64,000 nucleotides of DNA from Gemmatimonadaceae bacterium (GCA_035606695.1 DATNEW010000031.1:62001-126000), one strand, 5' to 3'. Positions 3,548-8,964 are shown, counted from the first letter of the stretch. A program made the numbers and translations. The notes: generated by a model not told the origin, from the letters alone.

Positions 3548-5572
3548 ATGAATCGCTTTCCCCGTCCTCTCCGGAGTCGCGGCTCCGGGAGGTGGTCGTG
3601 GGCGGCGCGAACGACGAACGGGCGACGCGGCCGGTTGTCCCAGGTCGCCGCATTGACCGTGCTCTGGATTCTTGGCGCGTGTCGCCGCTCCGAGGCGCGG
3701 CATGGCGCACGAGCCGGCGCCGGCATGCCCGCGGACTCTGTGGCGACTTACCCGCTGGACCCGCTAAGCGGGCCGGAAATCGCGGCTGCGGCCCGCGCCG
3801 TTGAGCGTTCTGGAAAGTTGCCGCGCGGAACGTATCGGTTCGCGGAAATCGTTCTCGACGAGCCGCCGAAGGATAGCGTTCGGCGTTTTCGGCCGGGCGC
3901 GACCATGACGCGCGCGGCGCGCCTTGCGGTCGTCGATCTCGCGAACGGCCAGACCTACGATGCAACGGCCGACGTCGCGCGCGCGACGCTCACGCGCTGG
4001 CAGCCGGTCACGTCAGGCGCGGCGCCGCTCGTTGGAGCGGAGTACGACAGCGTGCGTGCCGCGCTGCTTTCCGATGACCGGTGGCGACGCGCCTTGGAGC
4101 GCCGTGGGATCACGGAACCGGACTCGGTTCATCTCTCCGTGATCGTGGCCGGCGATGCGTCGCCGGATAATGCGCGTCGAGTCCGAGTGTTGGCCTTTCT
4201 GGAACGGTCGGGTATTGCGTACCTCCATCCGGTCGAAGGCCTGGTGGCCGTCGTCAATGTCACGACGCGGCGCGTGGAACGTGTCATCGACATCGGCAGT
4301 GCTCCGGTGTCGGCGGCCGCGTTCGATTCCACGATGGACGCAGCGAAGGCGACCGGACTTCGAACGCTCGAGGTGCGGCAGCCCGATGGGCCGAGTTTCA
4401 GGATCGACGGCCACGCCGTCGGTTGGGCGGGTTGGCATTTTCGTTTCGCGCCTCACCCGCGAGATGGCCTTGTGTTGTACGAAGTGTCGCGCGACGTCGC
4501 GGGCGCGAACCGGCGAATACTCAGCCGGGCCTCGCTATCCGAGATGCTCGTGCCGTACGGCTCGCCCGACAGCGCCTGGTATTGGCGAGCCGCATTCGAT
4601 CTGGGCGAGTACATGCTCGGCAATACGATCCATTCGCTGGCTCGCGGAATCGACGTGCCGGCGAACGCGAGCCTGTTTCCGGCGACGCTCGCGACCGACG
4701 AGGGTGAGGCCATCGTCACGCCGAATGCCGTGGCGATCTACGAGCGCGACGGCGGCTTGCTGCGGCGGCACGGCCAGTTTGCATCGCGGGCGCGCGAGCT
4801 CGTCGTTCGATCGGTATTCACGGTCGGCAACTACGACTACGGTTTGGACTGGATCTTCAACCAGGACGGCAGCCTCCGCGTGGAGGTGGAGTTGACCGGC
4901 GTGATGTTCGCGCAGGCGACGTCCGCCACCGACGAGCATGCGTGGGAGCAATCGCCGGCGCATCGCTTCGGGCATCTCGTGGCGCCGGGGCTCGCGGCGG
5001 TGCATCATCAGCATTTTTTTAACTTCCGGCTGGACTTTGACGTCGACGGCGAGCAGAACGACGTCGTCGAGGTGAACACCGAGCCCGTGCCCCGCGGCGC
5101 GCAGAACCCGCACGGGAATGCATTCGCGACGACCGAATCGTTGCTGACCGGGCCGCGATCGCGCCGCGATGTCGACGCCAATGCCAGTCGCTGGTGGAAA
5201 GTGATCAATCCGAATCGCCTGAACGCGCTCGGACAACCGGTCGGCTACGCGCTGGTTCCGGGCGAGACCGCGCCGAGTTATCTCGCCCCGGACAATCCGG
5301 CACGGCGGCGTGGGGCCTTCGTCGATCACCAGCTGTGGATCACGACGTACGCGCCGGATCAACTGAATGCCGCGGGCCGCTACCCTCGCAACAATCCAGG
5401 CCCCGACGGTGTCGAGGCCTGGACGAACGGCGGCAGCACGTTGACGAACGCCGACGTGGTCGTGTGGTATACGCTCGGCGTCACGCACGTTCCACGGCCC
5501 GAAGACTGGCCGGTCATGCCGGTCGTGCGCGCGTCGTTCGTTCTCAAGCCCATCGGATTCGACGTACGCTGA
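3548..5572 (+). CDS. copper amine oxidase, lipoprotein
   Basis: Protein of 674 aa, close to the usual 650-720 for copper/topaquinone amine oxidases, which oxidise primary amines to aldehyde, ammonia and H2O2. Visible key residues: catalytic-base Asp351 in AFDLGEY; Tyr429 in GNYDYG, the topaquinone precursor; copper His487 and His489 in HHQHFF; and the third copper His in THVPRPEDWPVMP near the C-terminus. The N-terminus has a long basic region, a hydrophobic core and a lipobox (LGAC, Cys46), so the mature enzyme is probably a lipoprotein. It is convergent with the thiol-redox island. All residues needed for activity are present. Confidence 0.92.
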   Translation: MNRFPRPLRSRGSGRWSWAARTTNGRRGRLSQVAALTVLWILGACRRSEARHGARAGAGMPADSVATYPLDPLSGPEIAAAARAVERSGKLPRGTYRFAEIVLDEPPKDSVRRFRPGATMTRAARLAVVDLANGQTYDATADVARATLTRWQPVTSGAAPLVGAEYDSVRAALLSDDRWRRALERRGITEPDSVHLSVIVAGDASPDNARRVRVLAFLERSGIAYLHPVEGLVAVVNVTTRRVERVIDIGSAPVSAAAFDSTMDAAKATGLRTLEVRQPDGPSFRIDGHAVGWAGWHFRFAPHPRDGLVLYEVSRDVAGANRRILSRASLSEMLVPYGSPDSAWYWRAAFDLGEYMLGNTIHSLARGIDVPANASLFPATLATDEGEAIVTPNAVAIYERDGGLLRRHGQFASRARELVVRSVFTVGNYDYGLDWIFNQDGSLRVEVELTGVMFAQATSATDEHAWEQSPAHRFGHLVAPGLAAVHHQHFFNFRLDFDVDGEQNDVVEVNTEPVPRGAQNPHGNAFATTESLLTGPRSRRDVDANASRWWKVINPNRLNALGQPVGYALVPGETAPSYLAPDNPARRRGAFVDHQLWITTYAPDQLNAAGRYPRNNPGPDGVEAWTNGGSTLTNADVVVWYTLGVTHVPRPEDWPVMPVVRASFVLKPIGFDVR

Positions 5573-5609: not shown

Positions 5610-6188
5610 CTATGGTCCTGAAGCGGCCGTCGTTCCTGGGTGCGGAGCCACCGGTGCACGACGCGGACAGCTCGTGGCGTGTGCCAGCGAGTCGAGCGAC
5701 GCGCCCGGAGCCGCGACGGACTTCACCACGCCGCCCGTCCCCATGACGACGAGCGTCGGCACGCTCGGCACGTGCAGCGCGTGCACGACGTCCATGCGAT
5801 CGTTCTCGACGGCGAACAACGGCGCCGAGAGCTTGTGCGAGTCCGCGAATTCACGCGACGACGCCCAGTCCGCGAACGACACGACGATGCCGTTCCACGA
5901 GCCCGAGTCGCCGAATGCAGTCGCCCACCGCGACGCTTCGTGTTCGCAGGTTGGACACGTCGGCATCATGAACACGACGAAGGTGCACGCGGGCACGCGC
6001 GCGAAGTCGAGCGAGACGGGGATTCCCTTGTCGACGACCGCGATGCGGCCGTAGTGCGCGCCCGGCGTGACGACGGACGGCGGCTTCGGGTTGCGCCGAT
6101 ACAGCATGCCGAGTTGCGTCAGCGCCAGCGCGGCAAGTAACACGGTGGCTGCGCGCAATCCCAGTCTGTCGCGAATCCTGTTGGGCAT
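5610..6188 (-). CDS. membrane-anchored thioredoxin-like protein (TlpA/MauD type)
   Basis: Protein of 192 aa with one N-terminal transmembrane segment (residues 13-29) and a thioredoxin-like periplasmic domain whose active site is Cys78-Pro-Thr-Cys81. The PSVPT segment (about residue 142) is the cis-Pro loop. It resembles TlpA/MauD-like thiol-disulfide proteins. It is last in a minus-strand group with the Cys-rich peptide (131 bp upstream) and the PDZ lipoprotein. This arrangement suggests that its substrates are the cysteines of those exported neighbours. The C-terminal ~25 residues are Pro/Ala-rich and may be disordered. Confidence 0.8.
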   Translation of the reverse strand: MPNRIRDRLGLRAATVLLAALALTQLGMLYRRNPKPPSVVTPGAHYGRIAVVDKGIPVSLDFARVPACTFVVFMMPTCPTCEHEASRWATAFGDSGSWNGIVVSFADWASSREFADSHKLSAPLFAVENDRMDVVHALHVPSVPTLVVMGTGGVVKSVAAPGASLDSLAHATSCPRRAPVAPHPGTTAASGP

Positions 6189-6318
6189 GATCTCGTAGCC
6201 TCTGTGAATGAGCGAGGGACGACCGATGCTCCGACCTCGAACCGCCAGGCCGGGCGGCCGTGCATGGGTCGTCCCTCACGTGTGAGCTCGAGTGAGCCCG
6301 TGATGTGCCTTCGATGTG

Positions 6319-6519
6319 TTACTTGATGACGCAGCCGTTACACTGCGACGCGTCCACGCTGCAACAACAGTTGTTCGTGCCGTCCGTGCATGCGCACGCG
6401 CACGCGCGATTGAGAGAAATCTCACCGGCCATCGCCGGGCTCGCGAAGTGGGCGAGACCCAACATGACGTTCACCGCAACCGCGGCGACCAAGAGTCGAA
6501 TTGAGCGACGACGATCCAT
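6319..6519 (-). CDS. secreted cysteine-rich peptide
   Basis: A 66-residue gene with a very good ribosome site (GGAGGAGTT directly upstream of ATG 6519). Residues 1-31 form a Sec signal peptide ending ASPAMA. The mature part of ~35 residues holds eight cysteines (ACACAC, CCC, CNGC patterns). I do not recognise the family. The architecture, with leader or signal and Cys-dense core next to thioredoxin-like and DsbA-like genes, recalls the small Cys-rich peptides found with MauE/TlpA-type genes, but no MauE is visible here. It may be a disulfide-rich structural or metal-binding peptide; a modified (RiPP-like) product is also conceivable but unproven. Confidence 0.75.
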   Translation of the reverse strand: MDRRRSIRLLVAAVAVNVMLGLAHFASPAMAGEISLNRACACACTDGTNNCCCSVDASQCNGCVIK

Positions 6520-6575
6520 AACTCCTCCAAAGTGAAATGGCCGAACTGTGGCCTGGCGGTAGGATGACGCTGCCG

Positions 6576-7106
6576 TCACGTACGGCGGCAGCCGTTGCAG
6601 TAGGCTCTGGTGGCGACGGCGCATCCCGTCTCGCCCAGGGTGCGCCCCGAGGCGTTGAGTCGAAACGCGGCGCAATGGCGCCGCCCTTCCGGTGGGCGTG
6701 TGACCGTATCGCGGATTTCCTGGCGCAACGGCAGAAGCAGCTCGGTGACGATCGAGTCGCGGCTGATCTGCATTGTCACGTTGCGCGGAAACGCCGACCG
6801 CAGCGCCGAGTCGACGGCGGCGCTCGTGTTTACTCGCGTGCGATTCAGGCCGATGATCCTGTCGTGGGCGTGTAGGCCCAGCCGATCGGCCAGCGAGCCC
6901 GCTTGAACGGCAATGATCTGCGGGCCGTCACTCACGTTATCGATCGTCCAGCCGATGGTCGTCGCCCAGTTCGGCGGTTGCTCGCGCGTACAGCCGGCGA
7001 TCGCGGCGGCGGCGAGTGCGCTGAGGAGCGCCGCCGCCGTCCGTCCCGCACGACAACCACGACAACCACGACAACATCGACCAGCGATGAGAATCATCGT
7101 GTGCAT
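6576..7106 (-). CDS. PDZ-domain lipoprotein with Cys-containing tail
   Basis: Protein of 176 aa. An N-terminal signal ends in a lipobox (AIAG-Cys39). Residues ~60-125 read as a PDZ domain (GSLADRLGLHAHDRIIGLN, as in HtrA/RseP-type PDZ modules that bind C-terminal peptides). The last 30 residues hold four cysteines and end AYCNGCRRT, sharing the CNGC tetrapeptide with the end of the Cys-rich peptide encoded 57 bp downstream. It is probably first in the minus-strand group with that peptide and the thioredoxin-like gene. The start codon is uncertain: 7106 and 7097 are both possible. No protease domain is present. Confidence 0.7.
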   Translation of the reverse strand: MHTMILIAGRCCRGCRGCRAGRTAAALLSALAAAAIAGCTREQPPNWATTIGWTIDNVSDGPQIIAVQAGSLADRLGLHAHDRIIGLNRTRVNTSAAVDSALRSAFPRNVTMQISRDSIVTELLLPLRQEIRDTVTRPPEGRRHCAAFRLNASGRTLGETGCAVATRAYCNGCRRT

Positions 7107-7411
7107 CTCGCGTCATCCCCGAGTGAGTCGCCCAAGCGAACCTAGAAAGGGGATGTGCTGCAACAAGCGGCGAGCTGACGGGGTTGTCAGCAACGCCGCT
7201 TCGGCCAGTCACCGATCGCGCGGACCTGACGAGAATATCAGATTGCGAATTTAAATATGCGCATGCTCTGGTCGTCGGTCGCGCGCGTGCTTACGATACG
7301 AGCCGTCGGCGCGATGCATCGCGACGCATGGGAGCGCATCGGGCGCGCGGCACGCGGCGCGCACACGAAACCTTCGACACACCATCGCCCGCGCGGGTGA
7401 TTGGAGGCGAC
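7107..7411. promoter_or_regulatory. divergent intergenic region of the thiol-redox island
   Basis: A 305-bp gap between the minus-strand PDZ gene and the plus-strand DsbA-like gene. A less GC-rich patch around 7235-7262 (TATCAGATTGCGAATTTAAA) is the best candidate for promoter elements. No coding frame is convincing: the downstream reading frame extends back to 7184 but lacks family-like sequence before 7412. Confidence 0.4.
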
Positions 7412-8128
7412 ATGTCACGGGAGTGGATGCAACGGCAGCTCGATCGCGCAATCATGGTAGCGCTCGTCGCGTGCCTCGTGCTCGGCGGCGGACTCGCGCT
7501 GCAATCGTATCGGCGCCGCAGTGCGGTACCGCCGGCGACACCGCCGACGCTCGTCGCCAATTGGCGTCAGCTCGCCGAGGTCGGCAACGTCATGGGTCCT
7601 GCCACGGCGCCCGTAACGATTCTCGAGCTCTCCGACTTTCAGTGCCCCTTCTGCTCGCAGGCCGCGGCGTCGATTGCGCGGCTGCGCCGCCACTATGGCG
7701 CCCAAATCAAGGTCGTGTTTCGACATTACCCGTTGACGGGGCTACATCCTTTTGCCTACGCCGCCGCCGTCGCGTCGGAATGCGCGGCCGAACAGGGCCG
7801 CTTCGAGCCGTTTCACGATGCCGTATTCGGAAATCAGGATTCGATCGGCAAATGGTCCTGGTCGACCGTCGCGCGCCGCGCGGGAGTCGCCGACACGACG
7901 GCATTCGAAGCCTGCCGCGGTGATGCCACGAGCGCGGCGCAGGCGCGCGTCGAGCGCGACGTCGCGACCGGCCACGCGTTAGGCATGACCGGCACGCCGA
8001 CCGTCATTGTTCAAGGTCTCAAATTTCCCGGTGCACCGAGCTATGCCGTGCTCGACAGCTTGACGAAGCTCGTGCTCGCCGGCCACGCGTTGACGGCACC
8101 GGAGCCGCGTGCGGTGGCGTCGCGCTGA
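7412..8128 (+). CDS. DsbA-family thiol-disulfide oxidoreductase
   Basis: Protein of 238 aa with a transmembrane anchor (residues 13-30) and a DsbA/thioredoxin_4 domain. It has Cys78-Pro-Phe-Cys81 in SDFQCPFCS, the helical insert with PLTGLHPFA, and a cis-proline loop TGTPTV near residue 195. It catalyses thiol oxidation or exchange in the periplasm. ATG 7412 is preceded by GGAGG at 6 nt, which decides the start. It is divergently placed to the PDZ/Cys-rich peptide/thioredoxin-like group, so two thiol proteins flank two exported Cys-containing proteins. Confidence 0.88.
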   Translation: MSREWMQRQLDRAIMVALVACLVLGGGLALQSYRRRSAVPPATPPTLVANWRQLAEVGNVMGPATAPVTILELSDFQCPFCSQAAASIARLRRHYGAQIKVVFRHYPLTGLHPFAYAAAVASECAAEQGRFEPFHDAVFGNQDSIGKWSWSTVARRAGVADTTAFEACRGDATSAAQARVERDVATGHALGMTGTPTVIVQGLKFPGAPSYAVLDSLTKLVLAGHALTAPEPRAVASR

Positions 8129-8169
8129 CTGAGGGCAACGCGGACCCGCGCACGCGAGCCCGCGCGCGC

Positions 8170-8964
8170 TCACTGCCCGGCGTCGACCGAGCCTTCGTCG
8201 CCATAGCGCGCGAGACTCGCGAGCGACGGCAACGACAGGCGATAGCCCGCGTTGCGTACGGTCTGGAGATGATGGTCGAGGCCGATGCGCGCGAGCTTCT
8301 TTCGGAGCTGCGCGATTCGCGCTTCCAGCGCGTTTTCCGACAAGGGTGTTTGATCGGCCGGTCCGCTCATCGTCGCCAGGAGATCCCGGCGTGACACCAC
8401 CGCGCCGCGCGCGCGCGCGAGAAGCGCGACGATGCTGAACTCGCGCGGCGTGAGGGGAATACTCTGGTTCTGAAAGAGAATGCGCATGCCCGGAACATCG
8501 AGCAGCCACTGTGGCGCCAGCACCAACGGACGAAACTGCTCGCGCAAGCCGGTGCGACGCAGCAGCGTTCGCACGCGCATGACGAGCTCTTCGGACACGC
8601 ACGCCGCGCGCACCACGTCGTCGGCGATCTCGGCCAACGGGTTCGCGCTTTCGCGAGGCGAGCCGTTCGGCAGCTCGTCGACGACGGCGAGGATGCTTGT
8701 CGCGGGCGCGCGTCGCCGCAGGTCGCGCACGGCGTGGGCCATGGCGCCGTCGACCGGCGCGCCGATGACGACCACGCGCGTCGACGGCAAGCGCTCGCTG
8801 GCGAGCACCTCGGCGATGCTTGGCGCGGCCCAGACGACGACCGAGGCCGCGCTGAGGCTCCGGCACATCGACGCTCGTCGCGCCGAGGTGGGATCGGTGA
8901 CGCACACCGGCCCGGATGCGGCGGCGGTGTCGAACGGTGGCGCGTTGCTGCGGCTGATGGGCAC
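8170..8964 (-). CDS. winged-helix regulator with degenerate receiver domain
   Basis: Protein of 264 aa. Residues ~165-255 form an OmpR/PhoB-type winged helix (LTPREFSIVALLARARGAVV, then the recognition-helix segment and the VRNAGYRL wing). The N-terminal half is receiver-like in length, but the usual phospho-acceptor Asp after the third strand is not evident, so it is probably a phosphorylation-independent pseudo-receiver. The start is GTG 8964, supported by GAGGA 7 nt upstream. It is convergent with the DsbA-like gene (41-bp gap) and divergent from the FtsX-like permease gene. No partner kinase lies nearby. Confidence 0.75.
   Translation of the reverse strand: MPISRSNAPPFDTAAASGPVCVTDPTSARRASMCRSLSAASVVVWAAPSIAEVLASERLPSTRVVVIGAPVDGAMAHAVRDLRRRAPATSILAVVDELPNGSPRESANPLAEIADDVVRAACVSEELVMRVRTLLRRTGLREQFRPLVLAPQWLLDVPGMRILFQNQSIPLTPREFSIVALLARARGAVVSRRDLLATMSGPADQTPLSENALEARIAQLRKKLARIGLDHHLQTVRNAGYRLSLPSLASLARYGDEGSVDAGQ

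Follow-up and report, generated by a model that had tools for sequence, protein, structure and literature searches.

The window analysed here is a stretch of 64,000 nucleotides from a Gemmatimonadaceae bacterium (GCA_035606695.1 DATNEW010000031.1:62001-126000), in which a gene for a small exported, cysteine-rich peptide lies next to genes for a PDZ lipoprotein, a TlpA-like and a DsbA-like protein. The family assignment agrees with genome G249 of the same genus, part of whose DNA is identical to that of a named Gemmatimonadaceae metagenome-assembled genome. We consider this locus to be probably a member of a cassette class of Gemmatimonadota that makes exported disulfide-rich peptides with private thiol-redox helpers. 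The peptide would be one of dozens of fast-changing exported peptides encoded beside thioredoxin-fold genes of their own, a class that is apparently undescribed, as no published description of such cassettes was found in a literature covered mainly outside subscription journals. If this holds true, a one-off orphan becomes part of a large class of bacterial disulfide-rich peptides, whose rapidly diverging cores keep them out of reach of homology searches, and the cassettes make it possible to test a case in which disulfide formation is dedicated instead of general, with possible TonB-dependent export.

Relatives of the window DsbA were gathered from the class, their surroundings were fetched, and one fixed peptide rule (hydrophobic leader, ribosome binding site, at least four cysteines in the tail, at most 110 amino acids (aa)) was applied to the clade and to the controls. 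An exported Cys-rich peptide was present within 1.5 kb of 32 of the 44 cassette-clade DsbAs, usually just upstream and on the same strand, compared to 2/86 related DsbAs in public genomes that belong mostly to other phyla (one of the two being from Gemmatimonadaceae; Fisher P=3.5e-18), and 0/14 housekeeping DsbAs of the same genus (P=1e-6). At held-out loci, fetched later, a peptide was found in seven cases out of eleven, and all seven peptides had an even number of cysteines. In the tree, the cassette DsbAs form one branch (49 rows, all Gemmatimonadota) apart from the housekeeping DsbAs, with a Shimodaira-Hasegawa-like approximate likelihood ratio test (SH-aLRT) value of 92, and the window DsbA falls among the peptide-linked DsbAs, outside those of housekeeping type and of other phyla. 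The CPxC site, the TP cis-Pro and an extra Cys pair (C124, C168) are invariant in the clade alignment, including the window DsbA. The cassette DsbAs share their fold and CPxC chemistry with DsbA, BdbD, ScsC and Rcas_1661, but represent a separate Gemmatimonadota clade tied to peptide genes. Three more DsbA-peptide loci are present in the window genome (L082, L083, L084), and cassette-type DsbAs were identified in 62/295 genomes of the class and 31/121 genera, at one to six per genome, although a few of these matches are parts of larger proteins and possibly do not mark cassettes. This provides a mining rule, namely an exported open reading frame (ORF) with an even Cys number next to a cassette-clade DsbA or TlpA, which is usable across the abundant but little-cultured Gemmatimonadota.

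Two further loci deserve mention. In one (L228/L229; contig C7 of genome G249, 123066-124987), an IS3-type insertion interrupts the cassette DsbA, whose halves are separated by two transposase ORFs, and the adjoining peptide has seven cysteines, one of only two odd cases; this single example is suggestive of a decaying cassette. In a Chloroflexi metagenome-assembled genome, a 90-aa exported peptide with eight cysteines directly follows a DsbA-like gene (L147:5547-5819), and similar pairs may therefore exist outside Gemmatimonadota.

Complete disulfide pairing predicts an even number of cysteines, and 37 of the 39 independent clusters formed from unrelated mature sequences have one (P=1.4e-9), while the parity of other residues in the same clusters was near 50:50. 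This is indirect evidence that the peptides may be fully paired. Together with the connection to oxidising DsbAs, this parity speaks for stable disulfides and against a quite improbable alternative, in which the peptides would bind metals or act as sacrificial thiols, so as to sense or buffer stress of redox or metal origin, with the thioredoxin-fold proteins recycling them. The Cys density, the CC and CxC motifs of the window core and the adjoining TlpA-like reductant are in line with such a function, as are the CxxS partners described below, which could form mixed disulfides, but the hypervariable Cys spacing argues against a fixed metal site.

Within the constraint on their cysteines the peptide cores are hypervariable, whereas the leaders are conserved, a combination that suggests an outward-facing role (antagonism, recognition) over housekeeping. 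A more specific form of the cassette reading, in which each peptide is folded by its own oxidase and serves as a weapon of bacteriocin or toxin type or as a signal for kin recognition, is possible but tentative. It is consistent with small, exported, disulfide-rich and hypervariable peptides that occur in several unrelated copies per genome and as tandem variants at one locus (L085), and with the help that disulfide bacteriocins receive from accessory thiol oxidoreductases, for instance PedC (PMC4919988). On the other hand, no immunity-like gene family recurs among the neighbours, no dedicated exporter of the peptidase-ATP-binding cassette (ABC) type was seen at the loci, and the activity is only predicted. 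Pediocin PA-1/PedC and thermophilin 13 resemble the cassettes in combining a small secreted disulfide peptide with its own thiol oxidoreductase (PMC4919988, PMC10059821); the cassettes differ in their Sec-type leader, Gram-negative envelope, PDZ, propeller or outer-membrane partners, and far more cysteines and variability.

The features of the window locus and its flanks are as follows.
3548-5572, plus strand: copper amine oxidase (E=6e-129), convergent.
5610-6188, minus strand: TlpA-like protein, membrane-anchored, with a thioredoxin fold, a CPTC active site and a conserved cis-Pro position.
6214-6277, minus strand: 16-bp inverted repeat giving a strong RNA stem-loop between the peptide and TlpA genes (z=-3.95).
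6319-6519, minus strand: exported peptide of 66 aa with a GGAGG ribosome site; its mature part of about 35 residues includes eight cysteines.
6576-7106, minus strand: PDZ lipoprotein with a lipobox (..IAGC) and a four-Cys C-terminal tail; the start codon is uncertain.
7107-7411, no strand: divergent intergenic region between the PDZ and DsbA genes, with presumed promoters but no consensus found.
7412-8128, plus strand: DsbA-like thiol oxidoreductase (Thioredoxin_4, E=1e-19) with a CPFC site, divergent from the PDZ-peptide-TlpA run.
8170-8964, minus strand: winged-helix regulator (Trans_reg_C, E=8e-16) without a recognisable receiver domain.

These positions and strands agree with the preliminary description of this DNA for all five ORFs between 5610 and 8964, including the exported eight-Cys peptide between the PDZ lipoprotein and the TlpA-like gene, with the DsbA-like gene divergent. 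The same description had proposed a dedicated system for a disulfide-rich or otherwise modified peptide. The first part is well supported by the relatives of the leader, TlpA, DsbA and PDZ protein, which adjoin other exported even-Cys peptides, while modification beyond disulfides found no support, as no radical S-adenosylmethionine (SAM) motif was present among the neighbours.

The window peptide (MDRRRSIRLLVAAVAVNVMLGLAHFASPAMA^GEISLNRACACACTDGTNNCCCSVDASQCNGCVIK, leader^mature) has a Sec-type leader with an AMA cleavage site, is preceded by the sequence TTTGGAGGAGTT, which contains the GGAGG ribosome site, and shows the core spacing CxCxC-x6-CCC-x6-C-xx-C. Its gene is the sole ORF fulfilling the peptide rule in the whole window, and the background in related loci was 3 per 372 kb, which argues against a chance ORF. 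Direct searches yielded no homologue elsewhere in its own genome or in public genome contigs, and no confident match in 295 genomes of the class. The weak matches of the latter search served as leads, some of which proved real by gene context; following them, we reached loci where thioredoxin-fold genes adjoin different exported peptides rich in Cys. Against Pfam, NCBIfam, PADLOC and PDB sequences, 43 peptides gave chance-level matches only. Four orthologous related peptides of 68 aa are under purifying selection, with a ratio of non-synonymous to synonymous substitution rates (dN/dS) of 0.1-0.28, and of about 0.05-0.14 in the mature part. It is thus highly unlikely that the peptide is an artefact, an ordinary ORF lying by chance beside unrelated thiol genes: the failed homologue search and weak family scores would allow it, but the controlled linkage statistics, the parity test, the leader homology, the ribosome site and the dN/dS of relatives do not agree with it. 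Single-sequence structure models had predicted local distance difference test (pLDDT) values of 40 and 35 and were not used.

Besides its CPTC site the window TlpA has an N-terminal anchor, but it is only weakly recognised by family profiles (AhpC-TSA, E=0.007). With this protein and five others as queries, 29 loci of TlpA relatives were collected, and an exported Cys-rich peptide was within reach at 22/29, a count that is not fully independent since some of the loci had supplied the query alignment. Most of these TlpA-linked peptides belong to one eight-Cys family with the core CC-x(5-14)-CC-xx-CC-x(3-7)-C-x(2-7)-C. The leader of the window peptide scores 19.8 bits on the hidden Markov model (HMM) of the TlpA-linked leaders and contains the invariant Asn of their hydrophobic stretch, a score higher than those of 49 other peptides, 129 other signal sequences and 2000 shuffles. 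Peptide and TlpA therefore point independently to the same family. The window core is alignable but does not follow the family pattern, and because of its different spacing the peptide is regarded as a relative, rather than a member, of this family.

Many TlpA-like partners of eight-Cys peptides (L230-L258) carry a single-Cys CxxS site instead of CxxC, with the cis-Pro region kept; such proteins may act as chaperones or trap mixed disulfides instead of being oxidoreductases. In several genomes of genus g59, anti-sigma-like and extracytoplasmic function (ECF) sigma genes follow a TlpA-propeller-peptide run (L043:8493-9576, L051:9072-9686), a possible regulatory link.

Three operon types recur among the loci: peptide-DsbA-NHL propeller, peptide-DsbA-PDZ-outer-membrane protein (Oar-like), and TlpA-(propeller)-peptide. 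Propellers were identified from NHL structures and outer-membrane proteins from their CarboxypepD_reg and OMP_b-brl_4 domains. DsbA and propeller genes show 4-bp start/stop overlaps, while DsbA, PDZ and outer-membrane protein genes are separated by short gaps, and the partners lie mostly less than 2 kb from DsbA rather than farther away (PDZ 8:0, outer-membrane protein 10:1, propeller 15:3). Among the called genes, the window PDZ is the only protein from outside the family to pass the HMM built from PDZ proteins that share an operon with peptide and DsbA elsewhere (E=3.5e-7). Since PDZ, peptide and TlpA stand in one run and DsbA is divergent, the window locus is a mixture of these recurrent arrangements. 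A conserved five-gene order, for which the preliminary description had proposed a search, was not supported: the partners are reshuffled between loci, and searches at the sequence level revealed neither a real orthologue of PDZ or TlpA nor a counterpart of the peptide among 117 further genomes of the family, of which five are from the same genus. The loss of the peptide from relatives that keep its neighbours together, named there as a refuting pattern, does not apply here, because peptide and neighbours disappear jointly. PDZ, peptide and TlpA seem unique to this Gemmatimonadaceae species by sequence, not by context. The end of the four-Cys tail of the window PDZ protein (YCNGCRRT) resembles the end of the peptide (QCNGCVIK), and the operonic PDZ proteins elsewhere have no such tail.

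Methylamine and quinohemoprotein amine dehydrogenases combine a propeller with a disulfide-laden small subunit and a MauD-like maturase. By analogy, the peptide could serve as the Cys-rich small subunit in an envelope complex, enzyme or receptor, whose large subunit is a β-propeller; we regard this as unlikely. NHL-type propellers are operonic with DsbA or the peptide at about a third of the loci, the window TlpA is weakly MauD-like, and a quinone-type amine oxidase gene adjoins the window cassette; the MauA/MauD pair, moreover, likewise consists of a Cys-rich small exported protein and a MauD-type thioredoxin-fold protein. However, no propeller lies near the window cassette and many cassettes have none, the propellers are NHL-like and not MauB-like, no mau gene set was seen, and hypervariable cores are unlike a catalytic subunit. 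The window TlpA scored 18.1 bits on the MauD model (TIGR02661), far under the curated cut-off of 188.6, and its identity as MauD was rejected.

Under the cassette reading, the leader would direct the peptide through Sec to the periplasm, where the DsbA-like protein, judging from its linkage and the even Cys number, would oxidise the cysteines to a full set of disulfides. Several housekeeping DsbAs have a VKOR-like protein (identified by eye) encoded alongside, and the cassette DsbA is presumably re-oxidised by this housekeeping system of the genome. The membrane-anchored, CPTC-containing TlpA-like protein may reduce or reshuffle wrong bonds, and the PDZ lipoprotein could hold the peptide, perhaps by its C-terminus, or pass it to the outer membrane for display or release at the surface. 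In other cassettes this last step might, speculatively, proceed via the operonic Oar-like outer-membrane protein; both the outer-membrane route and the biological target of the peptide are speculative. The domain set of the cassette outer-membrane proteins corresponds to that of Oar. An Oar-like protein is located near eleven other cassettes and is absent beside the window cassette. TonB-dependent secretion has been described for Oar/PopC in Myxococcus xanthus (PMC6434023); unlike in that system, the secretion role of the cassette outer-membrane proteins is putative. Since the bacteriocin/PedC and Oar/PopC systems differ from the cassettes in leader, exporter and partners, no membership of either family is claimed. 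A broader proposal, a phylum-wide, hitherto undescribed Gemmatimonadota system for folding and secretion that combines hypervariable disulfide-rich peptides with conserved leaders, a private DsbA/TlpA-type foldase, a PDZ or propeller carrier and Oar-like TonB-dependent export for antagonism or recognition, is rather doubtful.

Several observations weigh against the assignment of the window locus to a cassette class. No peptide was detected at 12/44 cassette-clade DsbAs, and the totals depend on a rule that requires cysteines and a leader, although the controls were subjected to the same rule. The window DsbA is divergent and hence outside the peptide operon, and the window core aligns no more than loosely with the TlpA-linked peptides, ranking 38th of 999 when set against shuffled cores. 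No orthologue of the window peptide was found, so that purifying selection is shown in its relatives only. Finally, CxxS sites are common, and TlpA-type partners therefore need not be redox enzymes.

Two other peptide groups were compared. NVEALA peptides of Bacteroidota (PF14055) are short and exported, as the cassette peptides are, but their profile matched none in the genus and none among the 43 peptides. The ranthipeptides of Gemmatimonadota are also Cys-rich ribosomal peptides from the same phylum, and require radical SAM enzymes (PMC11651109). When 108 neighbour proteins from related loci were scanned for CxxxCxxC, one match appeared, not radical-SAM-like by eye, and no radical SAM Pfam match was present among the window neighbours, so a radical-SAM ribosomally synthesised and post-translationally modified peptide (RiPP) of the ranthipeptide/SCIFF (six cysteines in forty-five residues) type was rejected.

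Among the remaining features, the winged-helix regulator had been counted with the cassette, but no such family recurs at other cassettes; the amine oxidase is convergent and looks unrelated, as previously suggested, and both genes are probably bystanders. ADOP permeases were discarded as a cassette part, being not enriched near DsbA (2 near, 2 far). No sigma-70-like promoter was found at the locus, and an Rfam scan gave no match. The stem-loop at 6214-6277 is a possible attenuator or mRNA stabiliser: strong stems occur 3′ of 12/45 peptide genes and 11/120 other genes (P=0.01), although the mean z of the 3′ flanks did not differ significantly between the two groups (P=0.13). Lastly, a locus of genome G298 (L045:330-1530) encodes two small hydrophobic Gly-rich proteins with Cys pairs and a TlpA-like CPHC protein, together with transporter-like genes and a possible C39-type peptidase end, and resembles a bacteriocin cassette equipped with a TlpA of its own.

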